DNA of 64,000 bases from NCBI RefSeq assembly GCF_001485535.1, contig NZ_BCMZ01000001.1, positions 124,001-188,000 of the forward strand, in the 5' to 3' direction. A program made the position numbers and the translations under genes. Under the pieces are notes generated by a model, which saw only the letters and a list, made by a program, of their open reading frames with translations, ran no database searches and was not told where the DNA came from. The stretch comes from Halobacterium sp. CBA1132. GTDB lineage: Archaea > Halobacteriota > Halobacteria > Halobacteriales > Halobacteriaceae. The stretch's first letter is position 1. Each line of letters starts with the position of its first letter. Shown piece by piece: positions 8,700 to 64,000 of this stretch.

Positions 8700-9725
8700 A
8701 TGCGGCCCGCGGTGCTGGACAGCGCGCTCGCCGACGCGAGCGCTGACGCCTTCGTCGTCGTCGGCCCCGCCGACGACCCGCTCGTACGCGCCTTCAGCGG
8801 CGCCGCTCTCCCGTGCCGTGCGGCCGTCGTCTACGCCGGCCGCGTCGCCGTTGTCCCCGAGCGTCCGCTTCCCGACTACGTCACTGTCCGGGCCGACGTC
8901 TCTGTTCTCGACCCCGTAGCGACGCCCGCCGAGCGCCTCCCGGACCTCGTGGCCGACAGCGTGCTCGCTCCCCGCTCGCTCCCCCACGACGCCGCACTCT
9001 ACCTCGAAAACGCCGGCGTCGACGTGGCCTCCACGGACGCCCACCTGCGCGCGAGAGAACGGAAGACCGACGGCGAACTCGCCGCGCTCCGGGACGCGCA
9101 GGCCGCCGCCGAGGCCGGAGTGGCGGCGGCCGCGAAACTCCTCTCGGAGGCCGCTGACGACCCGCTCGCGGACGACGCGGGCGACGTGACTGCCGAGCGC
9201 GTGCGCCGCAGCGCGAACGCAGCGATGGCGCGGGCGGGCGCTGACCCCGAGACGGTCGTCGCGGCCGAGGGGTCGATTGGAGCCAGCGACCCCGTTCCGA
9301 TTCGCGTCACGCCCCGCGTTGACGACTACCACGGCTGTCTCGCGCGCACGTTCGTCGCGGACAGCGACGGCGGGTGGGAGCGCCGCGCGACGCTCGCCGG
9401 CGAGTACGCCGTCGACGCCGGCATCGACATCGTGGACATCGGGGAGACGACCGTCGCGGCGGCCGCGGAGGAAGTTACCGCAGAACTGGGGTCGTACGGG
9501 TTTCCGCCGACTGCGGGAACCGGCACAGTTCACGGCGTCGGCCTCGAACGCCGCGAGCGCCCCGAGAGCGAGGACGCAATCGAGGCGGGCGCGGTGCTGG
9601 CGGTTCGTGCAGAATTGGACGCCGAGAAGACGGTGTGGGTCGCGGACCTCGCGGTCGCCACCGAGGACGGCGTCGAGCGAGTCGGTGCCTTCCCGCGGTC
9701 GGTCGTCCCAAAGCCGGACTACTGA
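8700..9725 (+). CDS. M24-fold protein with degraded metal site
   Basis: A 341-residue pita-bread-fold (aminopeptidase P/creatinase) homologue that starts at the base after the helicase stop. The fold is recognisable from the N-terminal creatinase-like part and from GTGTVHGVGLERRERP, which keeps the His of the GHGxGL motif. Of the five M24 metal ligands only this His is evident: the DxxxxxxGYxxDxTR region reads RVTPRVDDYHGCLARTF, and the two Glu motifs read LAVRAEL and VWVADLAVATEDG. It is therefore probably not a classical dimetal peptidase. It could be a binding or pseudo-enzyme protein. Confidence 0.8.
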   Translation: MRPAVLDSALADASADAFVVVGPADDPLVRAFSGAALPCRAAVVYAGRVAVVPERPLPDYVTVRADVSVLDPVATPAERLPDLVADSVLAPRSLPHDAALYLENAGVDVASTDAHLRARERKTDGELAALRDAQAAAEAGVAAAAKLLSEAADDPLADDAGDVTAERVRRSANAAMARAGADPETVVAAEGSIGASDPVPIRVTPRVDDYHGCLARTFVADSDGGWERRATLAGEYAVDAGIDIVDIGETTVAAAAEEVTAELGSYGFPPTAGTGTVHGVGLERRERPESEDAIEAGAVLAVRAELDAEKTVWVADLAVATEDGVERVGAFPRSVVPKPDY

Positions 9726-9955
9726 TTTTCGTCGTCGGGGTCTTCGACGACCGCGTCCGTGGCTTTCTGTGCGGCGAGAATCGGAACGTCCGTCGGCATC
9801 GTCACGTACTGTTCGAAGGCGATGATGCCCGCGGCGAACCCGAGGAACACCCACCCGGTCGAGTCGCCCGCGAGCAGCGTTTCGACGCCGAACAGCGCGG
9901 CCGGCGCGGCGAACGCCACTGCCACAGCGAGCGTGATGGCGTCGAGGAGTTTCAC
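9719..9955 (-). CDS. Small membrane protein (DUF7533-like)
   Basis: A 78-residue protein with two predicted membrane segments (residues about 5-27, LDAITLAVAVAFAAPAALFG, and about 33-52, GWVFLGFAAGIIAFEQYVTM) and an acidic C-terminal tail ending DPDDENQ. It resembles, from memory, a haloarchaeal family of two-helix membrane proteins (DUF7533). The 3' end overlaps the end of the convergent M24-like gene by 7 bp. The function is unknown. Confidence 0.75.
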   Translation of the reverse strand: MKLLDAITLAVAVAFAAPAALFGVETLLAGDSTGWVFLGFAAGIIAFEQYVTMPTDVPILAAQKATDAVVEDPDDENQ

Positions 9956-10033
9956 AACTCCCCCTCGGCGCTCGCGTCACATAAGCCCGTCCGAAACCAC
10001 AGCGTTTTCGTTACGGATAACGAATCTGGTAGC

Positions 10034-10624
10034 GTGTTCACCGGCATCATCGAGGAGACCGGCACCGTCGAGCGCGTCGTCGACGAACCCGACGGCCGCC
10101 GCATCCGCATCGCGACGGGGGACCTGAGCGGCTTCCAGCACGGCGACAGCGTCAGCGTCGGCGGCGTCTGCCTCACTGTCGAGGAGTACGGAGATAATTG
10201 GTTCACCGCGTTCACCGCGACGGAGACGCTGGAAGCCACCACTCTCGACGAGGTCCGCGAGGGCGACGAAGTGAATCTCGAACGCGCGCTCCCTGCCGAG
10301 GGTCGCCTCGACGGCCACATCGTGCAGGGCCACGTCGACACCACCACCGAAGTCGTCGCCGTCGAGGAAGTCGGCGAGGACTGGACGTTCACGTTCGCGC
10401 TTCCGGACGGCCACGAGCAGTACGTCGCGCAGAAGGGCTCGATTACGCTCGACGGAATCAGCCTCACCGTCGCCGACGTCGACGACGAGAACGGGACGTT
10501 CTCGGTCGCGGTGGTGCCGACGACCTACGACCTCACGACGCTCTCCGAGCGGTCGCCCGGCGACCGCGTGAACGTCGAAGTCGACGTCGTCGCGAAGTAC
10601 GTCGAACGCCTCGATACCTACTAA
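10034..10624 (+). CDS. ribE: Riboflavin synthase alpha chain
   Basis: A 196-residue lumazine-binding protein that dismutates two 6,7-dimethyl-8-ribityllumazine molecules into riboflavin and a pyrimidine. The start is GTG at 10034, giving the hallmark MFTGIIEETGTVE; the longer frame upstream lacks similarity. Two homologous lumazine-binding halves are visible. The first has GDSVSVGGVCLTV and the second GSITLDGISLTV, joined by GRLDGHIVQGHVD. It overlaps the PrsW gene stop by 4 bp on the opposite strand. Box-A-like ttacggataacg lies about 20-25 bp upstream. Confidence 0.95.
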   Translation: MFTGIIEETGTVERVVDEPDGRRIRIATGDLSGFQHGDSVSVGGVCLTVEEYGDNWFTAFTATETLEATTLDEVREGDEVNLERALPAEGRLDGHIVQGHVDTTTEVVAVEEVGEDWTFTFALPDGHEQYVAQKGSITLDGISLTVADVDDENGTFSVAVVPTTYDLTTLSERSPGDRVNVEVDVVAKYVERLDTY

Positions 10625-29263: not shown

Positions 29264-29745
29264 CGGTGCTCGTCGACACCGGCGTCCTGTACGCGGACCA
29301 CGACACGGACGCAGCGAGACACGACGCTGCGAGCGACACGCTGGACGCCGTCTACGACGGCGAGTTCGGCCAGCCGTACGTCAGCGACTACGTCTACGAC
29401 GAGGCAGTGACATTGACGCTCGTACGTAGCGGGTTGTTCGCCGACGAAGCGCCTCGGTGAGCGGCTCTGCGGCGTTGACCCGGATCCGGACGCGCCCGAG
29501 TTGTGTCGCGTATCGAATGCGGTCTTCGACGACGCGGCTCGCGGGTCGGTCCTTCCCGCTCGCTACTTTCGTCGTCTGCCTCCGGTCAGCGACGCGGTCA
29601 AACGTTCGAGCGATACGATTATGGACTGCGTTTCACCGACGCGACGACTATCGCGCTCTGCGAGCCCACGGCATCGACGCCGTGCTGCGTTTCAGCGACG
29701 ACCTCGACGCGGTCGTCGAGCGGGTGGCCCCCTCGAAGTCGTCGA
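29260..29745 (+). pseudogene. Frameshifted VapC (PIN) toxin
   Basis: The start MTVLVDTGVLYADHDTDAAR is a normal PIN N terminus, but the frame ends at 29460. The rest of the protein is spread over other frames: RLGERLCGVDPDPDAPELCR then VSNAVFDDAA in a second frame, FERYDYGLRFTDATTIALCE back in the first, and HGIDAVLRFSDDLDAVVERV in a third. At least three frameshifts separate these pieces, all recognisable PIN segments in the right order. The toxin must be inactive. Confidence 0.8.
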
Positions 29746-29853
29746 ACGAGGTGAGACGACGGAGTGCGCCGTGAGCCACATCGTCGAGTGAAACGAAATC
29801 GGTGGGTGGCCTCACGAACGGTAATGAATATCTTGTGGCCGAACCGGGGCTAT

Positions 29854-30013
29854 TCCCGTATAAGCGCGAGCGAGAGACGCTAGAAACAGCCAGAAGACAT
29901 TTTCCGGTGAAGGAAAGCTAGTGGTAATACCCCTACCCACTGGTGCCAGCGTTCAGTACCGTCGCACCCGCGACGCGAACGACGTCGGTACCGAAATCGA
30001 GGATTACCAAACC
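29854..30013 (+). promoter_or_regulatory. Promoter and leader of S-layer gene 1
   Basis: A box-A-like gtataagc (29858-29865) lies in the upstream region. From 29929 to the ATG at 30014 a leader sequence follows that is nearly identical over its first 60 nt to the leader of the second S-layer gene (32888-32973). It contains the small hairpin gtcgc-accc-gcgac. A long leader is established for Halobacterium csg mRNA, so this conservation fits a regulatory or stabilising 5' UTR. Confidence 0.6.
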
Positions 30014-32596
30014 ATGACAAACAACACAGACAAGCTCCGCGCGGTCTTCCTGACTGCGCTGATGATCGGCAGCGTCTTCGCAGCCGGCATCGCGTTCACA
30101 GGCAGCGCCGCTGCGGGCACAAACGTCGACATCGGTCCTGGCACGAACGAGTCAGGCGCAACGGGTGTCACGTATACCGCAACAGGGACGACCGAGAACA
30201 GTAGTGACATGCAGTATCTCACCTTCTATCTGGAAGGTGTGAATCTCAGCAACGTCCAGAGCGAGGACGTCACGCTCACTACTGCCGATGGAGAGTACAG
30301 CAGCCAGATTACCGTCTCGAACGACGACGAGAACAACCTCTCGATTCAGCTCGCTGACTCCGAGGGCGTCCAAACTGACGAGAACGTGACGCTGGAAGTC
30401 ACGGGGCTCACGAATCCGACCGCGGGAACGTACGACGCATCCCTCGCTCTTGAGACCACTAGTGAGGGAAGTTCGTTCGACACGTTCAACGATACGTTCA
30501 GTATCAATCCGTCCGCCACCATCAACTCGGATAGAGTGTTCAACGACCGCGACGAACTCTCCGGATCGCTGGTCTTTCAGGGACAGACGTTTGCACTCGA
30601 TGTGTCGAATGCGAATCTCAGTAGTGGCGATAATGTCGTGTTGCGGCGCGTAACTGGATCAGATAGTTCGACGCCAGTTGCCAGTCAGCAGGTCGACGAC
30701 GACCTCTACGTCCAGTTCGACACGTCTAATCGTCAGACCTCAGATTACTTCCTTAGTGGAGGGGATCTCACCCGAAGTAACAGCCAGTTCGAGCTCGTCG
30801 AGCAGACGATTACCGCCGAGTTCGCAGAAGACACCGTCGACAACGGTGGCGAGACCGAGGTCAACTTCAGCGTCTCCTCGGAACTCCGCGCTGCTGACGA
30901 GTACAACGCGACCGTTACTGTCGAAGGCTTCAGCGCCGCCGACTTCGAACAGGTCTTCCCCACTATCAGCGAGAGCGACGTTGAGGAGGACGACGACGGT
31001 AACAACTACATCACGGTTGAGGACATCGACGCGGGCAGCCCGCACGTCCTCAACTTCAACGACATCGACGCAGGCAACTACACCTTCGACGTTGAGGTGA
31101 CGGACACGACGGCCTCCGACACTGCCAACATCACCGTCAACGAAGTCGGTGAAGGCAGCGTCTCCTTCGCACAGAACACGTACATCGAACAACAGGGCGA
31201 CGTCTTCAACATCACCATCGACCTGAGCGAGGCCGCCCAGTCCGGCACGCTCGTCATCGGTGACGAAGAAGACATCGGCTACCAAGCCAACGTCTCCTTC
31301 GAGGATACCAACGACGACGGCCAGGTTAGTGTCCTCTTCAACAGCTACGAAGCCGGTAACTACAACGGTGGCAGCGGTGCAGAAGTTGTCGAAGCCGCCG
31401 CAAACGAGGACACTCAGGACACCGTCTCCATGCTCGGCGAGACGGGCGGCATCGAGAGCATTCTCGAGCCTGGCGACTACGAGCTCGCAGTCAGCACCGA
31501 CAGCAGTAGTGACCGCGCACAGGCTACGCTCGATAACCCGAGCGCCCTCTCCGTCGCCGTCATCGAAGAGCGCTCGACGACCGGCGTCAACCTCTGGGTC
31601 GCCTCCGACAACACCGTTAGCGACATCGACTCCGCCGAGGACATCGCTGCCGGTGCCGGTACGAACATCACCGAGAGCGACACCGTCGCCTCCGGTGACA
31701 CCATCATCCACCAGTTCGAGGCCTCCGGCCTTACCGGCCTCCTCGACACGCAGGACGCCGACACGACCGCTGCGTTCAAGGCACTCCTCGACAACGAGAA
31801 CGTGACGGTCACGGTCAACCAGACCGAGGAGTCCACCCAAGCGAACCGCGAGCCGAAGACGCTCAACAACACGGAAGTTGCTAACGCCGTTACCGGTGTC
31901 TACCAGGACGGTGACACCTACTACGTCGTTACCAACACCAACGACCTCAACGACGAGGCCGACCGTAACTTCGCCGCGGAGGACGTGCTCAACGTCACCT
32001 TCACGGTCGAGGACCACCGCCTCCTCGACAGCACTAACAGCGAAGACTACCAGCACGTCTCTGACGAGATCGAGCTGGTCGAGCGTTCGGCTTCCTTCGA
32101 CTACGACGGTGACGAAATCACCGTCGAAGCCGCATCCGGCCAGGTCATCTCCGGTGACACGACGATCGCGCCCGGTAGCGAGTTCACGCTGCGCGTCCGT
32201 TCGACCGGCGACACGCAGCCGCGCTTCACCATGGGCCCCACCGTCACGGTCGCCGCTGATGGTACCTTCAGTCACGAGTTCGACTTCAGCGAGCGCTCGG
32301 TGAACGACACGTTCACCGCCTCGCTCTCCGGCGGTAACTTCGCCGAATCCGTCAGCGCTGACGGTGTTGTCGTCGAAGCCACCGCAACCGCCACGGCAAC
32401 CGCCACCTCGACGGGCACCGCCACCGCTACGGCCACCGAGACCGCTACGGCAACGGAAACCGCCACGGCCACGGAAACCGCTACGGCCACGGAAACGTCT
32501 GAAGACGAGTCCGGCGGCGGCATCCCCGGCTTCGGCATGGGCATCGCGCTCATCGCCGTCCTCGGTGCTGCCCTGCTGGCTCTCCGCCAGAACTAA
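30014..32596 (+). CDS. csg: S-layer glycoprotein 1
   Basis: An 860-residue cell-surface glycoprotein. It begins MTNNTDKLRAVFLTALMIGS, a Sec signal cleaved near AAA-GTN (residue 34), close to the known Halobacterium csg signal. The body has many N-x-S/T glycosylation sites and beta-rich domains. From about residue 258 it matches the second S-layer protein closely. A repeat stalk of the form TATATETATATE, for O-glycosylation, precedes the PGF-CTERM tail (GIPGFGMGIALIAVLGAALL then ALRQN). ArtA processing and lipid attachment of such tails is established in Haloferax. A strong terminator hairpin follows. Confidence 0.95.
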   Translation: MTNNTDKLRAVFLTALMIGSVFAAGIAFTGSAAAGTNVDIGPGTNESGATGVTYTATGTTENSSDMQYLTFYLEGVNLSNVQSEDVTLTTADGEYSSQITVSNDDENNLSIQLADSEGVQTDENVTLEVTGLTNPTAGTYDASLALETTSEGSSFDTFNDTFSINPSATINSDRVFNDRDELSGSLVFQGQTFALDVSNANLSSGDNVVLRRVTGSDSSTPVASQQVDDDLYVQFDTSNRQTSDYFLSGGDLTRSNSQFELVEQTITAEFAEDTVDNGGETEVNFSVSSELRAADEYNATVTVEGFSAADFEQVFPTISESDVEEDDDGNNYITVEDIDAGSPHVLNFNDIDAGNYTFDVEVTDTTASDTANITVNEVGEGSVSFAQNTYIEQQGDVFNITIDLSEAAQSGTLVIGDEEDIGYQANVSFEDTNDDGQVSVLFNSYEAGNYNGGSGAEVVEAAANEDTQDTVSMLGETGGIESILEPGDYELAVSTDSSSDRAQATLDNPSALSVAVIEERSTTGVNLWVASDNTVSDIDSAEDIAAGAGTNITESDTVASGDTIIHQFEASGLTGLLDTQDADTTAAFKALLDNENVTVTVNQTEESTQANREPKTLNNTEVANAVTGVYQDGDTYYVVTNTNDLNDEADRNFAAEDVLNVTFTVEDHRLLDSTNSEDYQHVSDEIELVERSASFDYDGDEITVEAASGQVISGDTTIAPGSEFTLRVRSTGDTQPRFTMGPTVTVAADGTFSHEFDFSERSVNDTFTASLSGGNFAESVSADGVVVEATATATATATSTGTATATATETATATETATATETATATETSEDESGGGIPGFGMGIALIAVLGAALLALRQN

Positions 32597-32606
32597 CCAC
32601 CACGAC

Positions 32607-32627
32607 TGACCGCCCGTAAGGCGGTCA
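32607..32627 (+). terminator. Hairpin after S-layer gene 1
   Basis: The stem tgaccgcc/ggcggtca (8 bp) with loop cgtaa lies 10 bp after the stop codon and is followed at 32650-32659 by a T-rich cctttcttt stretch. The same hairpin, with one stem change, follows S-layer gene 2. This fits a transcription terminator or a protective 3' end for abundant mRNA. Confidence 0.65.
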
Positions 32628-32973
32628 CACTACGCGGTACCCCAACCCGCCTTTCTTTCACGACGCCACAACCCGACAGTGGAAACACTGCGCTCGACAA
32701 TTCGGGCGCGTATCGACTATACTACTGTCTTAATATCTTGGTATTTGTTATCAAAGGGGTGTTTCGGAAAACCACCGAGTTACGCCCCAAACACCCCGAT
32801 ACCGTGTGAACCGCACACACAATTTCGCAGCAGAAGGGGGTGCATATAACAGAAAGTATTTACGGCCAACGAGGTACATATTGGAACACCCCTACCCACT
32901 GGTGCCAGCGTCCAGTACCGTCGCACCCGCGACGCGAACGACCTCGGTGCCGAACTGCAATCCAAAGCAAACC
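32628..32973 (+). promoter_or_regulatory. Intergenic region and leader of S-layer gene 2
   Basis: No gene is seen here. An AT-rich stretch at 32710-32760 (ttaatatcttggtatttgt region) and box-A-like gcatataac (32842-32850) and gtatttac (32856-32863) precede a leader at 32888-32973. The leader's first 60 nt are nearly identical to the leader of gene 1. The second box A is about 27 bp before the conserved leader start, suggesting transcription begins there. Confidence 0.55.
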
Positions 32974-35586
32974 ATGACAGAAAACACAAACAAGCTTCGC
33001 GCGGTCTTCCTGACTGCGCTGATGATCGGCAGCGTCTTCGCGGCCGGCATCGCGTTCACAGGAAGTGCTGCGGCGGACCTCAACACCACCAACGTAGAGG
33101 TTGGTGACAACACTACTGACGCTACTACCTACCACAACGTCAGTGGTAACCTTGCAAATCCGTCGGACAGTAGCATAGACAACATCACTGTGGACTATAG
33201 TGTCGGCGCTGAGGCGTCAGACGTCTCGAACGTCGGCCCCGGGAATGTCAACAGCGTTGTTGTTAATGGCACTACGGTAACTGTCGGCAGCGTTGATGGT
33301 AGCAACAACGGTGAAACCGCTACCTTCCAGTTCGACAGTAGCGTTAATGTGTCTGGTGGAGACGCCTTCCACCTGAACTACTCCAACGTTCAGAATCCCA
33401 GCAACGCCGGAGTTTACGACGTTAATGTATCCCTCGAAAACGGGAGTACTGCCGTCGATAGTGGCACACTCAGCTACGAGATTGTGTCCAGCTCCAGCGG
33501 CAGTAGTGCCGCTCCCGATGGCGTTGACGAGGTCTTCAACAGCCCGACGAACCTGTCGGAGCAGCTGATCTTCCAGGGTCAGACGATCGCAGTTGACGTC
33601 TCCGACTACGCCGATAACCAAACCTCGGTCTACCTCCGTCAGGGAGACGCTGAGGACTCCTCGGCCGTCGCTCAGGACACCGTTGAGGACGGCTGGGTCG
33701 TCTTCGACACCAGCAACCGCGAAACCGCCGACTACTTCCTGCGCGGTGGTACCCTGAACGCGAACAACAGCAGCTTCGAGCTCGTCGAGCAGACGATTAC
33801 CGCCGAGTTCGCAGAAGACACCGTCGACAACGGTGGCGAGACCGAGGTCAACTTCAGTGTCTCCTCGGAACTCCGCGCCGCTGACGAGTATAACGCGACC
33901 GTTACTGTCGAAGGCTTCAACGACGCTGACTTCGCGCAGGTCTTCAACGTCAGCGAAGACAACGTCAGCGAGAACGACGACGGCGTTCACTACATCGAGG
34001 TTGAGGACATCGACGCGGACAGCCCGCACGTCCTCGACTTCAACGACATCGACGCAGGCAACTACACCTTCGACGTTGAGGTGACGGACACGACGGCCTC
34101 CGACACCGCCAACGTCACCGTCAACGAAGTCGGTGAAGGCAGCGTCTCCTTCGCCGAGAACACCTACGTCGAACAGCAGGGCGACGTCTTCAACATCACC
34201 GTCGACCTGAGCGAGGCCGCTCAGTCCGGCACGCTCGTCATCGGTGACGAAGAAGACATCGGCTACCAAGCCAACGTCAAGTTCACCGACCAGAACGACG
34301 ACGGCCAGGTCCACGTCCTCTTCAACAGCTACGAAGCCGGCACCCACGGCTCCGGCGCTGAAGTCGTCGAAGCAGCCGAGAACGACGACACCCAGGACGA
34401 CGTCTCCCTGATCAACGAAACTGGTGACGTCGAGAGCATCCTCGAGTCTGGTGACTACGAGCTCGCAGTCAGCACCGACACCAGCAGTGACCGTATTTCG
34501 GAGACGCTCGATAACCCGAGCGCCCTCTCCGTCGCAGTCATCGAGGAGCGCGCCACCACTGGCGTCAACCTCTGGACCGCCTCCACTAACACCGTCAGCG
34601 ACCTCGACTCCGCCGAGGACATCGCTGCCGGTGCCGGTACGAACATCACCGAGAGCGACACCGTCGCCTCCGGTGACACCATCATCCACCAGTTCGAGGC
34701 CTCCGGCCTTACCGGCCTCCTCGACACGCAGGACGCCGACACGACCGCTGCGTTCAAGGCACTCCTCGACAACGAGAACGTGACGGTCACGGTCAACCAG
34801 ACCGAGGAGTCCACGCAGGCCAACCGCGAGCCGAAGACGCTCAACAACACGGAAGTTGCTAACGCCGTCACCGGTGTCTTCCAGGACGGTGACACCTACT
34901 ACGTCGTTACCAACACCAACGACCTCAACGACGAGGCCGACCGCAACTTCGCTGACGAGGACGTGCTGAACGTCACCTTCACGGTCGAGGACCACCGTCT
35001 CCTCGACAGCACGGACAGCGAAGACTACCAGCACGTCTCTGACGAGATCGAACTGGTCGAGCGTTCGGCTTCCTTCGACTACGATGGTGACGAGATCACC
35101 GTCGAAGCCGCATCCGGCCAGGTCATCTCCGGCGAAACCTCGATCGCGCCCGGTAGCGAGGTCACGCTGCGCGTTCGCTCGACTGGCGACACGCAGCCTC
35201 GCTTCACCATGGGCCCGACCGTCACGGTCGCCGCTGATGGCACCTTCAGTCACGAGTTCGACTTCAGCGAGCGCTCGGTGAACGACACGTTCACCGCATC
35301 GCTCTCCGGCGGTAACTTCGCCGAATCCGTCAGCGCTGACGGTACTGTCGTCGAATCCACCATGACGTCCACCACGGAAGCTCCGTCCACCACGGAAGCA
35401 CCGTCGACGACGGAAGCTCCGTCCACCACGGAAGCGCCGTCGACCACGGAAGCTCCGAGCACGACGGAAGCTCCGTCTACGACGGACGACAGCGGTTCCT
35501 CCGGTAGCGGCATCCCCGGCTTCGGCATGGGCATCGCGCTCGTCGCCGTGCTCGGTGCTGCCCTGCTGGCACTCCGCCAGAACTAA
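32974..35586 (+). CDS. csg: S-layer glycoprotein 2
   Basis: An 870-residue paralogue of the upstream S-layer protein. The signal peptide is almost the same (MTENTNKLRAVFLTALMIGS). The first 230 residues of the mature protein differ strongly from gene 1. From about residue 268 (FELVEQTITAEFAEDTV) the two run nearly identical, with about 209 bp of perfect nucleotide identity at 34606-34814. The stalk is replaced by a TTEAPS repeat. The PGF-CTERM tail is shared (GIPGFGMGIALVAVLGAALL). Both genes have the same terminator hairpin. They may be expressed alternately or together; the sequence does not show which. Confidence 0.95.
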   Translation: MTENTNKLRAVFLTALMIGSVFAAGIAFTGSAAADLNTTNVEVGDNTTDATTYHNVSGNLANPSDSSIDNITVDYSVGAEASDVSNVGPGNVNSVVVNGTTVTVGSVDGSNNGETATFQFDSSVNVSGGDAFHLNYSNVQNPSNAGVYDVNVSLENGSTAVDSGTLSYEIVSSSSGSSAAPDGVDEVFNSPTNLSEQLIFQGQTIAVDVSDYADNQTSVYLRQGDAEDSSAVAQDTVEDGWVVFDTSNRETADYFLRGGTLNANNSSFELVEQTITAEFAEDTVDNGGETEVNFSVSSELRAADEYNATVTVEGFNDADFAQVFNVSEDNVSENDDGVHYIEVEDIDADSPHVLDFNDIDAGNYTFDVEVTDTTASDTANVTVNEVGEGSVSFAENTYVEQQGDVFNITVDLSEAAQSGTLVIGDEEDIGYQANVKFTDQNDDGQVHVLFNSYEAGTHGSGAEVVEAAENDDTQDDVSLINETGDVESILESGDYELAVSTDTSSDRISETLDNPSALSVAVIEERATTGVNLWTASTNTVSDLDSAEDIAAGAGTNITESDTVASGDTIIHQFEASGLTGLLDTQDADTTAAFKALLDNENVTVTVNQTEESTQANREPKTLNNTEVANAVTGVFQDGDTYYVVTNTNDLNDEADRNFADEDVLNVTFTVEDHRLLDSTDSEDYQHVSDEIELVERSASFDYDGDEITVEAASGQVISGETSIAPGSEVTLRVRSTGDTQPRFTMGPTVTVAADGTFSHEFDFSERSVNDTFTASLSGGNFAESVSADGTVVESTMTSTTEAPSTTEAPSTTEAPSTTEAPSTTEAPSTTEAPSTTDDSGSSGSGIPGFGMGIALVAVLGAALLALRQN

Positions 35587-35597
35587 CGAATAACGAC

Positions 35598-35618
35598 TGA
35601 CCGCTCGTAAGGCGGTCA
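35598..35618 (+). terminator. Hairpin after S-layer gene 2
   Basis: The stem tgaccgct/ggcggtca with loop cgtaa lies 11 bp after the stop, followed by ctttctttcg at 35641-35650. It is the counterpart of the hairpin at 32607, with the innermost pair changed from C-G to T-G. Confidence 0.65.
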
Positions 35619-35689
35619 CACTACGCGGTACCCCACCCCACTTTCTTTCGCGCGCTACACTCCGACAGCGGCAGCGCTGTCCAACGTGA

Positions 35690-35812
35690 ACGCGGGTAGC
35701 CGACGAGACGAACGCTGTCGACGTCCTCTACTACGAGTGTGGCTGGGAAGCGTGGGAAATCGACAGTCGCCTGAAGCACTACGGAGATATCGAAGACCAC
35801 GACTGGGCGTAA
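35690..35812 (+). pseudogene. C-terminal fragment of an unidentified protein
   Basis: An open stretch without a start codon ends VDVLYYECGWEAWEIDSRLK then HYGDIEDHDWA and a stop. The codon choice and Trp/Tyr-rich composition look like real coding sequence. A stop at 35687 closes the frame upstream. I did not recognise the family. The rest of the 290-bp gap holds the S-layer terminator and the promoter of the HTH gene. Confidence 0.35.
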
Positions 35813-35845: not shown

Positions 35846-35877
35846 CACTTATTGCGTTGTATTACGTTTCATTACAC
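35846..35877 (+). promoter_or_regulatory. Box A and tandem operator repeats of HTH/PemK module
   Basis: A box A (cacttattg) is followed by two adjacent 10-bp direct repeats, gttgtattac (35856-35865) and gtttcattac (35866-35875), just before the GTG start. They lie between box A and the start codon, where a bound autorepressor would block initiation. Confidence 0.55.
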
Positions 35878-36198
35878 GTGCCAATCGGAATTGACCGCTT
35901 CGAGGACGACCGAAGCGACGCGCTCGACGTCCGAGAAGGGACGCAGCCGCATCGAATCCTGCAGTTCCTCGCCGCGAACGACGACCAGGCGTTCACGCAG
36001 ACCGAAATCCACGAAGCGACGGGCATCAAGCGCGGGAGCGTCGGCGCCGCGCTGTCCCGACTCGAAGACCGTGGCCTCGTCCGCCACCGCGGGCGCTACT
36101 GGGCCATCGGGGACGACGACCGGCTCGCGTCGTACACCGCGCAGACCACAGCGAGCTCGACGTCGACGACCGACGACTACTACGGCGACGATGAGTGA
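35878..36198 (+). CDS. Winged-helix antitoxin/regulator
   Basis: A 106-residue protein starting at GTG with MPIGIDRFEDDRSDALDVRE. The winged-helix part spans residues about 20-80: HRILQFLAANDDQAFTQTEI, then ATGIKRGSVGAALSRLEDRG and LVRHRGRYWAI, as in MarR-type DNA-binding domains. The tail is Ser/Thr/Asp-rich. It overlaps the PemK-like toxin gene by 8 bp (ATGAGTGA). It is probably the antitoxin and autorepressor of this module. Confidence 0.83.
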   Translation: MPIGIDRFEDDRSDALDVREGTQPHRILQFLAANDDQAFTQTEIHEATGIKRGSVGAALSRLEDRGLVRHRGRYWAIGDDDRLASYTAQTTASSTSTTDDYYGDDE

Positions 36199-36950: not shown

Positions 36951-37853
36951 ATGGTATCCGCGTTGACCGACACGCTCGCGTGGGTCGTCATCGCGGCGTT
37001 CGGGACGAGCGCCGTCCTCCAGGCCGACTACCGCCAGTACAGCCGGTACGCGGCGGTCGCGGCGTGGACGCTGTTCGCGGCGTTCTGGGGGCTGCTCGTG
37101 CCGTACTACTTCTTCGAGCACTTGAGCGTCATCGAGGGCGTGCTGAGCGCGGCCGCGGTGCCCGCGTGTCTGTACACCGCGTACCTCGTCGGCACGGGGA
37201 AGCGCCAACTGGAGACGCTGACGCGCTCGATCGCGATTATGGGGCTGTTGTTCCTGCCGTTCCAGACCATCGAGGCGACGCGGCAGTTCGCCATCGAGAC
37301 GGTCGCCCAGCAGGCCGAGTGGCTGATGGCGCAGTTCGGCTACTACCCGCCCGTCGTGGAGGGCGACCACGGCTACACGGCGAAATTCATGTTCACGGGC
37401 GAGCACGCCGTCACGGGCGAGTCGTGGAAGTTCCCGACGACGGTCCTGATGGCGTGTACGGGCATCGGCAGCATGTCCATCGTCGGCGGGCTCGCGCTCG
37501 CCGTGAAAGCGCCGTGGAAGCGCCGGCTACAGGCGCTGGCGGTCGCGCTCCCCGTCATCTACGGGCTGAACGTGATTCGCGTGGCGTTCATCGCCGTCGC
37601 GCACGGCGAGCAGTGGTTCCGCGGCGGCATCTACAAGACGCTCGCGTTCGCCGTGTTCCCCAGCAACGACCCGAATATGGTGTCGTATCTGTTCGCCGAC
37701 CGCATGCTCGCGCAGTCCGCGTCGGTCGTCGCGCTCGTCGTGTTGACGTTCGCGCTGCTCCGCATCGTCCCGGAGCTCGGCGGCGTCGTCGAGGACGTCG
37801 CGTACATCGCGACCGGCAACGAGTACGACATCACCGAGCGCTTCGCAGAGTAG
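36951..37853 (+). CDS. artA: Archaeosortase A
   Basis: A 300-residue membrane protein with about eight hydrophobic helices. The catalytic Cys lies in MACTGIGSMSI (Cys169), Arg210 in NVIRVAFIAVAHG and Arg251 in FADRMLAQS. This spacing matches Haloferax ArtA (Cys, Arg, Arg essential there). ArtA removes PGF-CTERM tails and couples the protein to a membrane lipid. Three such substrates are in this window: both S-layer proteins 1.4 kb upstream and the LVIVD protein at 14526. A diverged second copy of its last 45 bp lies 880 bp downstream, beyond the TumE module. Confidence 0.95.
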   Translation: MVSALTDTLAWVVIAAFGTSAVLQADYRQYSRYAAVAAWTLFAAFWGLLVPYYFFEHLSVIEGVLSAAAVPACLYTAYLVGTGKRQLETLTRSIAIMGLLFLPFQTIEATRQFAIETVAQQAEWLMAQFGYYPPVVEGDHGYTAKFMFTGEHAVTGESWKFPTTVLMACTGIGSMSIVGGLALAVKAPWKRRLQALAVALPVIYGLNVIRVAFIAVAHGEQWFRGGIYKTLAFAVFPSNDPNMVSYLFADRMLAQSASVVALVVLTFALLRIVPELGGVVEDVAYIATGNEYDITERFAE

Positions 37854-59410: not shown

Positions 59411-62400
59411 ATGAGTCAATCGACACTCGGTTCTACCCCCTACCAGAACTCGAATCTCTTCTCCGGCTACTACCTCGACGAGCGCATCTACGACCTCGAC
59501 GGCTGGGACTGCGACGAGGACGCGCGAGTGGCCTTCGAGGACCTCAAAACGCTCTGGGAGTTGGAGGGCGGCCTCGTGGACTCCTACAAGGAGGACGAGC
59601 TACTCGACGAGTGGATCGACGAGGTGCTGGATGTCCTCGGGTTCGGAACGAAGTCCGAGGCGACGCTCCCGGACAGCGGCGGGTACAACGACCGCCTGCT
59701 GTTCACCTCCGACGGAGAACGTCGCGACGCTGCACAGCGCGTCGCCGACGGTGAGGACGACGCCGACTACAAGCTCGCATCGGCGGTTCTCGAAGCCAAA
59801 CAATGGGACGCCGACTTCAGCGCCCGGTTCAGTGAAGCTCGTTCGTACCGGGACGCCTCACACCAAATCAAGTACTATCTCGAACACACGCCCGAGAACC
59901 TCAAGTGGGGCATCCTCACTGACGGGAAGAAGTGGCGACTGTACGGCACGAAAGACTACGCGACCGAGATCTACTACGAGGTCGACCTCCCCGAACTGCT
60001 CGCGACCGGCACGCTCGAACAGTTCAAGTACTTCTACGCGTTCTTCCGGCCCGACGCGTTCCGCGAGACCGCGGGCACGTCGTTCCTCGATACGGTGTGG
60101 AACGAGAGCGAGACCGCCGCCCAAGAACTCGGCGAAGACCTCCAGGACAACGTCTTCACGGCGCTGCGCGTCCTCGGCGAGGGGTTCGTGCACTCGAACG
60201 ACTTGGACATCGACCCCGACGACGAGGACGCGCGAGCGGAACTGAAAGAGCAGTCGCTGGTGTTGCTCTACCGCTTGATGTTCGTGCTGTACGCGGAGTC
60301 CCGGGGGTTGATTCACCCGGACGACGCCGACGACGAGGCGGAGTACCGCGAGCACTTCAGCCTCGACGAACTGCGCGCAGACATCCACGAGGACATCCAA
60401 GACGGCGATACCTACGAGGACTACAGCGGGTACTCGACGCAGATGTGGAGCCGGCTGCAGGACCTCTTTGGGCTCATCGATGCGGGCGAGGAGTCGTTGG
60501 ACATCCCGGCGTACAACGGCGGGCTCTTCGACGACGAGGAACACGAGTTCCTCGCGGAGAACGAGGTCGCGGACCGCTACATCGCGGAAGTCATCCACCG
60601 CCTCGGAACGACACTCGACGACGACGGGAAGTACGTCCTCGCGGACTACGCGGACTTGGACACGCGCCACCTCGGGTCGATTTACGAGGGACTGCTCGAA
60701 CACGAGTTCCGCATCGCGGGCGAACAGTACGCAGCGGTGTCGGCGGACGGCGGACAGGTGTGGCAGCCCGCGACAGAGGTGAGCGTCGCCGACGCAATCG
60801 AGACTGTCGAGGAGGGCGAACTCTACGTGGTGAACGACGACGGCGAGCGGAAAGCCACGGGCGCGTACTACACGCCGGATTACGTCGTCTCGTACATCGT
60901 CGAGGAGACCATCGACCCGCTGCTCGACGACATCAAAGCGGAGTTGGAGGCGGACGGTTTGGAGCCGTCGGAGCCGGAGTACTTCCGGCGGTTCTGGCAG
61001 TCGGTGCTCGATTTGAAGGTGTTGGACCCGGCGATGGGGTCGGCGCACTTCCTGACGAGCGCGACGGGCTACCTCACCGAGCAAGTGATGGAGGTGGTTC
61101 GCGAGCAGGAGATTCAGGGCTACGACGAGCAACACCTCCGCCGCGACATCGCCAAGGAGTGCATCTACGGCGTCGACATCAACGGAATGGCCGTCGAACT
61201 CGGGAAGCTCTCGATGTGGCTGGAGACGCTCGCCGCCGACCAGCCCCTCGCCTTCCTCGACCACCACCTCAAGGACGGGAATTCACTCGTCGGGTCGGAC
61301 ATCACGGACGTGCTCTCGGACGACGTCGACGATGACGGCGGCCAACTCACGCTGATGCAGGCGGCGGCGCGCGCCCGCAAGAACACGCTGGAGCACGTGA
61401 TGGAACTGATGCAGGAGTTGCTGGCGATGGACAACGAGTCCCTCGACGACATCAAGTCGATGGAGGACCTCTACGACGAGATTCGCGACGACCCGCTCTA
61501 CGGGCGGCTGTTCGAGATTGCGAACGTCCACACCGCCGAGGAGTTCGGTCTGGACGTCCCCGAAGGCGTCTACGAGGAGATGGCCGGCGCCATCGAGGAC
61601 GAAGACGAGTGGGCGGAGATTCGTGGCGAGGACTGGTTCGAGTCGGCGCAGGAGATGGCCGACGAGGAGGACTTCTTCCACTGGGAATTGGAGTATCCAG
61701 AGGTGTTCTTCGGGGAGGATGGGGAGAAGCGGGACGATGCAGGGTTTGACGCGGTTATTGGGAATCCGCCGTACGTGGAGATTAGTGGAAATATCGAACA
61801 GTACCTACGTACCCAATACGATGTCACCGAATATTTTGTCGATTTGTTCCACGGATTTATAGAACGAGCTATCGATCTGAACCGCCCTAATGGACAATTT
61901 AGTTATATTCTTCCAGAACCGTGGCTGACGATTGAAAACCGGGAGAAACTCCGCCACCATGTATTGGAAAATACAAACCTAAGGAAAATACTCAGAATCG
62001 AACAAGGCGTATTTCAAGATGCTACTGTTGACTCAATCATAGTCGTGGCGACAAAGGGAAGAGGAAACGATGATATCGACATCCTCGAATTAGGCGGGAC
62101 AGGATACCAAGAAACCCAGCATACTGTTTCACTTAACCAGGAGAGAATTTTGGAGAGTGATACATGCCGGATAGAAGTGGAACAAACAGCGGAGACAAAG
62201 GAGATATTTGATAAAATTCAGTCTGTATCAGTTCCGCTCCAAGACGTCGCCGAACTTGCTATTGGTGTACAGGCATATAATTCATCAAAGCATTCTAAAG
62301 AACAGATCGAAAATAGAGTTTTCCACTCCGATATAAAGAAGTCGGAAGAATATCTACCGGAAATAGCGGGAAATGATGTTTCTAGATATAACATATCATT

Positions 62401-63472
62401 TGACGGGAATAGTTGGATAAAATACGGAGATCACTTACACGACAAACGTGAATTCAGGTATCTTTCAGAGCCTAGGATATTGGTTCGCCAAATTCCCGGC
62501 AGTGGACGATATAAGATTCATGCAACGTATACTGAGAAGACATACTGCAATTACAACACAATCCTCAACGTATTACAAGATGGGGAGTACGATCTAAAGT
62601 ATATTTTAGCTTTGGTTAATTCTTCACTCATGTCTTGGGTATTTCCCAAGTTAGCGAATAGCGTTGTTAGCAATAACTTCCCAAAACTATCCGTAGTTGA
62701 CTTAGAACGACTCCCAATCAGAAAAATTGATTTCCAAAAACGGAGTGTTGCTACGCACTCTAATATTGAGGGGCAACTCAAAAACGGAAATATCGACGCA
62801 ACGAGAGATACGCATGAATCTCTTTCAAAATTGGCTGATAAGCGAATGGAGCTAGAAAGTCAACTGGGCAACTTAAACCTGTCTTTGAAAGATCACTTCG
62901 GGAACTATTCAGAAGGTTCCACTCTCGCTACAGTTGGATTCACTCAACCTCCGAAGGATTTGGCAGACTCTATTCTCCAACAAACGACCAAGGAAAAGCC
63001 AAACCTCCGAGTGGGCGAGGCTACTGTCGAGCGTGAATCCCCAAACACAGTCGAAATTAGACTGACCGCGCGTTACAAGCCCGACGAGGAGGACAAATAC
63101 GAGACTGATCAGTGGGGGTACACAGAGACTGAGCCATTACCAGCGCTCCGCATCACCGACCTCACGGAGTCTGAAGCTGACCTTGCCGAGGTGTTTATTC
63201 CAGTGGCTGTTGACGAGGCTAACGGATTCGCAAACTTCCGTGAGACCGCGACAAAAACCAACTCGCTCGTGGATAGGCTGCGAAAGCTTACTCTCCCCCG
63301 TGTCGATGACATCCGTGAAGGTCTGGAAAGTTATACCGAGACGAAAGAACGCGCCGAAGACCTGAAGGAGAAAATCGAGCGTACGGACGACCTCATCGAT
63401 AAAACCGTCTATAATCTATACGAACTAACCGATGAAGAAATTGAAATAGTTGAGGAAACGTTTGCGGACTAG
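59411..63472 (+). CDS. Type IIG restriction-modification enzyme (Eco57I-like)
   Basis: A 1353-residue fused enzyme. The N terminus has a nuclease-like PD-(D/E)xK pattern with VLEAKQW near residues 126-132. The N6-adenine methylase part shows RKATGAYYTPDYVVSYIVEE, motif I VLDPAMGSAHFLTS near 537, and motif IV NPPY near 784. The C-terminal third should hold the target-recognition domain. Such enzymes methylate and cut DNA from one chain. From about 61770 base composition turns AT-rich and uses AGA and ATA codons rare upstream, so the recognition part looks acquired separately. It lies next to a tRNA integration site. Confidence 0.9.
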   Translation: MSQSTLGSTPYQNSNLFSGYYLDERIYDLDGWDCDEDARVAFEDLKTLWELEGGLVDSYKEDELLDEWIDEVLDVLGFGTKSEATLPDSGGYNDRLLFTSDGERRDAAQRVADGEDDADYKLASAVLEAKQWDADFSARFSEARSYRDASHQIKYYLEHTPENLKWGILTDGKKWRLYGTKDYATEIYYEVDLPELLATGTLEQFKYFYAFFRPDAFRETAGTSFLDTVWNESETAAQELGEDLQDNVFTALRVLGEGFVHSNDLDIDPDDEDARAELKEQSLVLLYRLMFVLYAESRGLIHPDDADDEAEYREHFSLDELRADIHEDIQDGDTYEDYSGYSTQMWSRLQDLFGLIDAGEESLDIPAYNGGLFDDEEHEFLAENEVADRYIAEVIHRLGTTLDDDGKYVLADYADLDTRHLGSIYEGLLEHEFRIAGEQYAAVSADGGQVWQPATEVSVADAIETVEEGELYVVNDDGERKATGAYYTPDYVVSYIVEETIDPLLDDIKAELEADGLEPSEPEYFRRFWQSVLDLKVLDPAMGSAHFLTSATGYLTEQVMEVVREQEIQGYDEQHLRRDIAKECIYGVDINGMAVELGKLSMWLETLAADQPLAFLDHHLKDGNSLVGSDITDVLSDDVDDDGGQLTLMQAAARARKNTLEHVMELMQELLAMDNESLDDIKSMEDLYDEIRDDPLYGRLFEIANVHTAEEFGLDVPEGVYEEMAGAIEDEDEWAEIRGEDWFESAQEMADEEDFFHWELEYPEVFFGEDGEKRDDAGFDAVIGNPPYVEISGNIEQYLRTQYDVTEYFVDLFHGFIERAIDLNRPNGQFSYILPEPWLTIENREKLRHHVLENTNLRKILRIEQGVFQDATVDSIIVVATKGRGNDDIDILELGGTGYQETQHTVSLNQERILESDTCRIEVEQTAETKEIFDKIQSVSVPLQDVAELAIGVQAYNSSKHSKEQIENRVFHSDIKKSEEYLPEIAGNDVSRYNISFDGNSWIKYGDHLHDKREFRYLSEPRILVRQIPGSGRYKIHATYTEKTYCNYNTILNVLQDGEYDLKYILALVNSSLMSWVFPKLANSVVSNNFPKLSVVDLERLPIRKIDFQKRSVATHSNIEGQLKNGNIDATRDTHESLSKLADKRMELESQLGNLNLSLKDHFGNYSEGSTLATVGFTQPPKDLADSILQQTTKEKPNLRVGEATVERESPNTVEIRLTARYKPDEEDKYETDQWGYTETEPLPALRITDLTESEADLAEVFIPVAVDEANGFANFRETATKTNSLVDRLRKLTLPRVDDIREGLESYTETKERAEDLKEKIERTDDLIDKTVYNLYELTDEEIEIVEETFAD

Positions 63473-63534
63473 CCCTAATTAGACATTTAGTAGTCGGTGA
63501 AAGAAGAACGAGCTTAGTTGTTGGTGGGGTAAAG

Positions 63535-64000
63535 TCACGCATATATGTTCGGGGTTTTTGATTCTTGGCAAAGGTGAATGATGGCAGATTTAGCGGTTTT
63601 CCGATCAGTTGTTCCCCCAATAGTGACTTTCCCGCTGGAAAATATTATGAGCGTAGTCTCGAATTGAGGAGGACGATAAATCAGACCTGGGAATTGTTCA
63701 GGTTCGTACTCTATGTTCTCAAGCCCAAGAGTGAGGGCTAGTTCCTCCAGGTTCACCTCACGACCGAGATCTTCTACAAATACAGAAGTGGCTTGTGTGA
63801 AGTTAGGTTCAGATACATCCAACCCTATATCAGCAAGTACTCTCTCAAATTGCTGGAAGGATTGCATCAAAGAAGTTCTATCCTCTGCACCTCGAATCTG
63901 AAAAGCACCCGTCCGATAAGTTGTATACGCCGGTCCGCCCTCTTCTAATCGAACCGTGACCATTCCGGAACCGTTGAAATCCGGTTCAACTACATCACCA
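63535..64000 (-). CDS. Divergent TATA-binding-protein homologue (5' end cut by window)
   Basis: The second half reads DLGREVNLEELALTLGLENI and then EYEPEQFPGLIYRPPQFETT and IIFSSGKVTIGGTTDR, an almost standard second TBP repeat. The first repeat is degraded: VVEPDFNGSGMVTVRLEEGG stands where EPEQFPGLVYRL is expected. The reading frame continues past the window edge without an evident start, so the N terminus is missing here. It converges on the type IIG enzyme with 62 bp between. It may be an accessory TBP, or a protein using the TBP fold for another purpose. Confidence 0.82.
   Translation of the reverse strand, partial: GDVVEPDFNGSGMVTVRLEEGGPAYTTYRTGAFQIRGAEDRTSLMQSFQQFERVLADIGLDVSEPNFTQATSVFVEDLGREVNLEELALTLGLENIEYEPEQFPGLIYRPPQFETTLIIFSSGKVTIGGTTDRKTAKSAIIHLCQESKTPNIYA

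Follow-up and report, generated by a model that had tools for sequence, protein, structure and literature searches.

S-layer proteins form the only wall of haloarchaea and act as receptor for several of their viruses, and S-layer variation in archaea has been little studied. It is already known that S-layer genes vary and recombine between haloarchaeal strains (PMC4535781, PMC3119063, PMC5867893), and that one strain can carry two of them. S-layer glycoproteins have been described from Hrr. lacusprofundi and Hfx. gibbonsii (PMC10544981, PMC9973310). Hrr. lacusprofundi has two different S-layer glycoprotein genes per genome, as does the strain studied here, and the escape mutations known from it lie in the N-terminal part or in a Thr-rich motif, which may be compared with the variable N-terminal part and stalk of the present genes. 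However, the Hrr. lacusprofundi pair is only 41% identical, whereas the two genes described here stand in tandem, with near-identical cores and an apparently converted tract.

Divergent S-layer genes at a conserved locus are likewise found as the variants of genomic island 1 in Haloquadratum walsbyi, where an unrelated N-terminal extension, an S-layer recombination event of ~250 bp and Thr-rich repeats have also been reported (PMC4535781, PMC3119063). That variation lies between strains, whereas here two copies within a single genome differ from each other, and the variation extends across species of Halobacterium. Similarly, intragenic recombination takes place within S-layer clades of Haloferax S-layer glycoprotein genes, in a study that compares strains, apparently not tandem copies (PMC5867893). 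The general plan of the proteins resembles that of H. volcanii csg, with a signal peptide, an Ig-like array, a divergent D1, a Thr spacer and a lipid anchor (PMC8640222, PMC3225822). In the open-access literature searched, no description was found of tandem copies that carry a conversion tract and have exchanged stalks between S-layer families. The locus, which belongs to a species close to H. noricense, offers a case of probable recombination within one genome between coat genes in tandem; its breakpoints are mapped, and the exchange is directly testable.

Two tandem S-layer glycoprotein genes near artA

In the window, i.e. the whole stretch of 64,000 nt from Halobacterium sp. CBA1132 that was analysed, two intact ORFs (genes A and B, Table 1) lie in tandem 1.4 kb upstream of artA, a gene which the locus comparison places close to an S-layer gene in most Halobacterium species. 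Both products exceed the cut-off of the signal peptide model halo_sig_pep (TIGR04207; 46 and 51 bits for A and B vs 24.6), both match the BGTF surface domain (halo_surf_dom), and both score above cut-off for PGF-CTERM (TIGR04126, PF18204), of which the product of the artA gene present in this genome is the expected processor. In addition, the two proteins are acidic (~18% Asp+Glu, 2.5% Lys+Arg), contain 20 and 27 N-glycosylation sequons, respectively, and have a Thr-rich stalk ahead of the anchor. Judged by these sequence features, A and B would be ArtA-dependent haloarchaeal S-layer glycoproteins. They are not filed under the NCBIfam equivalog NF041335, since they score 286 and 272 bits (A and B) where at least 1100 bits are needed, a threshold reached in none of the 26 genomes of the family. 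No relative with a solved structure was found in the PDB by sequence search, and the AlphaFold model of B (pLDDT 40.5, pTM 0.27) was too poor for a fold search.

The original prediction had described tandem S-layer genes with a common signal peptide, central and C-terminal domains, PGF-CTERM, leader and terminator, which differ in the first ~230 mature residues and in the stalk (TATATE versus TTEAPS). This architecture is borne out by the model matches in both intact ORFs, the common leader and 3' hairpin, the divergent N-terminal parts of ~224 residues in A and ~233 in B, and the two stalk types confirmed from the sequence. The prediction had passed over the neighbouring artA, the differing promoters of A and B, the RNA structure of the leader and a third S-layer gene elsewhere in the genome.

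A small winged-helix (MarR-like) gene lies between B and artA (window positions 35858-36198), and stretches akin to it sit elsewhere at the locus in relatives. Meanwhile, at the end of the window (62001-64000) the GC content falls to 0.41-0.48 vs ~0.65 elsewhere, which suggests a foreign insert.

Table 1. Features of the tandem S-layer locus and their positions in the window.
Feature	Position	Strand	Description	Basis
Gene A	30014..32596	+	S-layer glycoprotein, 860 aa, TATATE-type stalk	Intact ORF; halo_sig_pep, halo_surf_dom, PGF_CTERM, partial NF041335
Gene B	32974..35586	+	S-layer glycoprotein, 870 aa, TTEAPS-type stalk	Intact ORF; domain matches as gene A
artA	36951..37853	+	Archaeosortase A	TIGR04125, E 5e-95
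TATA-like element of A	29898..29904	+	CATTTTC, 30 to 24 nt before leader start; diverged type common to H. noricense
TATA-like element of B	32857..32863	+	TATTTAC, spacing as in A; usual form of the genus	Upstream-region comparison
Structured 5' leader of A	29928..30013	+		CM match 92.5 bits; folding energy z -4.0; covariation in relatives
Structured 5' leader of B	32887..32973	+		CM match 90.5 bits; folding energy z -3.2
Variable N-terminal segment of A	30116..30787	+	dS ~2.7 vs B; GC3 0.61-0.72 vs 0.84 in core
Variable N-terminal segment of B	33076..33774	+	dS ~2.7 vs A; GC3 0.61 in residues 35-170
211-bp tract in A	31626..31836	+	Identical to 34604-34814	Permutation test; comparison with H. 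noricense
211-bp tract in B	34604..34814	+	Identical to 31626-31836	Permutation test; comparison with H. noricense
Stalk of A	32378..32512	+	TATATE; nearest are H. noricense (G005), 87% nt over 126, and G002_1
Stalk of B	35356..35502	+	TTEAPS; nearest is this genome's third S-layer gene (contig C3), 87% nt over 135
3' hairpin of A	32607..32627	+	TGACCGCCCGTAAGGCGGTCA, terminator-like
3' hairpin of B	35598..35618	+	TGACCGCTCGTAAGGCGGTCA

Mosaic divergence and an identical tract

In the codon alignment, A and B are 94% identical in the signal peptide, and identity drops to 27% in domain 1 and 49% in the initial part of domain 2; the core reaches 85-100%, the stalk 46% and the C-terminus 93%. The dS values are ~2.7 (near saturation) in the first ~225 mature residues, 0.20 in the core and 0.02 in the tract, and the best segmentation of the silent differences places breaks at ~30100, ~30780 and 32385-32450. 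Uniform divergence with no conversion tract, the outcome that the original prediction had named as counting against it, is contradicted by these sharp silent-site breaks and by a 211-bp identical tract.

The N-terminal parts are 38% identical in amino acids between A and B, and 39% and 38% identical to the genes of H. bonnevillei and the relative G004. Since their dS is saturated, their dN/dS (~0.27) is below 1 and their mutual distance is about the same as that to the genes of other species, these segments resemble old alleles that recombination has moved, not freshly diversified sequence, and the earlier view of an outer domain and stalk in the course of diversification is not upheld. The low GC3 of residues 35-170 is seen across the genus Halobacterium.

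Over the 1569 bases of the core, A and B differ at 130. An identity of ~209 bp had been proposed (31628-31836 and 34606-34814); the identity stands, and its measured extent is slightly different, 211 bp. When the 130 core differences were placed at random 20,000 times, and when codons were shuffled 5,000 times, no run of this length arose; with silent differences alone the test gives p = 0.004, a modest value because codon bias depresses silent divergence throughout. Among all pairs of 19 Halobacterium S-layer genes it is the longest exact match, the next being 91 bp, and it provides a tract without silent differences between paralogues, one of the features of antigenic variation by gene conversion.

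A wider mosaic across Halobacterium

Relatives were located by a DNA pattern in genome contigs; peptide patterns gave none that was confirmed. In nearby species the flanking genes are 88-96% identical, whereas the S-layer gene is not. The core tree groups A, B and H. noricense (G005) with support of 100/100. The tree of domain 2 groups A and B with H. bonnevillei (G001) and G004, also with support of 100/100; this domain rejects the grouping of A and B with H. noricense (AU p 2e-116), and the AU test against A and B as sisters in domain 2 gives a p of only 0.067.

The promoter and stalk have partners of their own. The upstream region of A is 84% identical to that of H. noricense (G005) over 308 nt, and the stalk and C-terminus of B are 90% identical over 264 nt to those of a further S-layer gene, the third in this genome. 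The latter is located on another contig (C3, 121 kb; L066:7481-10417), belongs to an H. salinarum-like family, has a leader of a different kind and, beyond the stalk, shows only ~30% protein identity to B. Near it is a sot0042-like RNA (L066:6004-6184) that scores below the Rfam gathering score. Plasmid-borne S-layer genes are also present in H. noricense, Haloarcula and Haloplanus.

Other arrangements of S-layer genes are found among the relatives. G002 and G012 possess other tandem S-layer pairs, whose 3' ends are identical within each genome. A TnpB-like ORF lies ahead of the G002 pair (L050:5130-6404), and a link between S-layer gene mobility and IS200/IS605 is possible. In G011, the artA locus has a decayed S-layer gene (L061, about 9576-10570), and another S-layer-like gene (L062:349-3006) has a signal peptide of a different type.

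Origin of the two genes

Taken together, we consider it probable that A and B, both standing at the conserved artA locus, are functional S-layer genes that serve as alternative coat subunits, and that they were built by homologous recombination, which exchanged outer parts and stalks and homogenised the cores. The two subunits would have the lattice-building core and the membrane anchor in common and would differ in the outer N-terminal part and the O-glycosylation stalk. The near-identical ends (leader, signal peptide and PGF-CTERM) and the core would supply the homology for recombination; outer domains and stalks would be swapped with paralogues and foreign S-layer genes, and the cores of A and B would be homogenised, most recently over a tract of at least 211 bp. 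Polyploid haloarchaea convert genes very efficiently between their chromosome copies, although the tracts there are longer (PMC8223754). The intact reading frames and the differing TATA elements suggest that both genes are made into coat and that they are used differently.

In the S-layer of H. volcanii, the D1-D2 dome points away from the membrane, with D1 as the domain that diverges (PMC8640222); the prediction that the variable domain is the outermost one agrees with this if the fold is alike. A varied coat might help cells to withstand viruses whose receptors are S-layer proteins, and by analogy virus pressure is a plausible driver. A viral S-layer homologue was looked for, with no match in phage records and none confirmed in viral contigs.

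A possible but less likely history is a recent tandem duplication, after which a foreign N-terminal part, stalk and promoter entered one copy, without repeated conversion between A and B. It would account for the A and B cores being 92% identical in nucleotides and closer to each other than to any other gene, for the single S-layer gene that H. noricense has at the artA locus, and for the low GC3 of the N-terminal parts, as in imported DNA. However, a single date of duplication predicts neither the uneven dN within the core (0.099 before the tract, 0 inside and 0.016 after) nor the 211-bp identical run.

It is much less probable that the pair is a phase-variation switch like pilE/pilS or vlp, with a single expressed locus to which the other supplies sequence. 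Homologues arranged in tandem, with variable middles between conserved ends, in polyploid haloarchaea with very efficient gene conversion (PMC8223754), would suit such a switch, but A and B each have a separate promoter, leader and terminator. Moreover, no silent donor cassette was found in the strain's own genome, which lacks a further N-terminal cassette and where the N-terminal parts of A and B match A and B only; the search for invertible repeats returned chance-level and paralogue matches, with no inverted repeats pointing to an invertible promoter. That two alleles of one locus were set side by side by the assembly is very improbable: haloarchaea are polyploid and the genome is known from its assembly alone, but A and B lie on a single 2.59-Mb contig with unique sequence between and around them, their promoters and stalks differ, and tandem pairs also occur in G002 and G012.

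Purifying selection alone, which would keep the cores alike with no recombination, is hardly credible even with the strong codon bias, a conserved S-layer core fold and a core dN/dS of ~0.28, because silent sites change abruptly at fixed points, segment trees conflict, and the segment identical in the paralogues is poorly kept between species (the tract is only 59% identical in amino acids and 73% in nucleotides to the H. noricense (G005) orthologue, no better than the remaining core); selection on the core was rejected for this last reason. Recombination or conversion of the core, as proposed originally, finds good support in the silent-site breaks, the dS of 0.20 vs ~2.7, the conflicting trees and the tract itself. 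In this one genome, the likeness of the cores may reflect true gene conversion or a recent partial duplication, with exchange in either direction.

A conserved structured leader

Both genes are preceded by a leader of 86-87 nt, composed of an outer stem (TGGTGCC/GGTRCCG) and an inner hairpin. Pairing holds in 96% of the cells across 11 Halobacterium leaders, and both sides have changed in two pairs of the hairpin (C-G to U-A and C-G to G-C). A covariance model built from Halobacterium leaders and run on 116 Halobacteriales genomes matched 37 of them, mostly once per genome, in 15 of 48 genera. Where the surroundings were read, 38 of 39 matches directly precede a gene with an S-layer-type signal peptide, the sole exception being the weakest, partial match. 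The outer stem of 29 sequence-anchored leaders has 29 doubly changed paired cells, a number that none of 500 shuffles reached (16 in shuffles) and that compares with no more than 9 in slid controls; the count leans slightly toward structure, as the 3' arm was picked by pairing where several CCG motifs were present. The single-sequence folding energy is strong for A, B and close relatives but weak in the full set (mean z -1.4), so the case for the leader rests on covariation and genomic position. The consensus start of the leader presumably matches the 111-nt H. salinarum csg leader.

A search of Rfam 15 with positions 29700-35800 gave no match up to E = 1, and leaders of other genera likewise had no Rfam match. 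The leader is a conserved and covarying RNA structure before S-layer genes across Halobacteriales, newly recognised here and absent from Rfam. Whether it represents a so far undescribed class of cis-regulatory RNA on the S-layer mRNAs of Halobacteriales, perhaps for autogenous or growth-phase control of coat translation, and kept on both genes while they swap outer domains, stalks and promoters, we regard as evenly balanced; if so, two interchangeable archaeal coat subunits would be under one RNA control. In stationary phase, H. volcanii represses the translation of its csg mRNA (PMC3225822), which makes a control function plausible by analogy; a structured leader could explain this so far unexplained repression, for which the leader found here is a concrete candidate.

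The S-layer genes of H. salinarum type (family II) have another conserved hairpin leader, CACCGTTTCGGCGGAATCAGG, with CCCCTACCC as its first letters as well (L050, L056, L058, L064).
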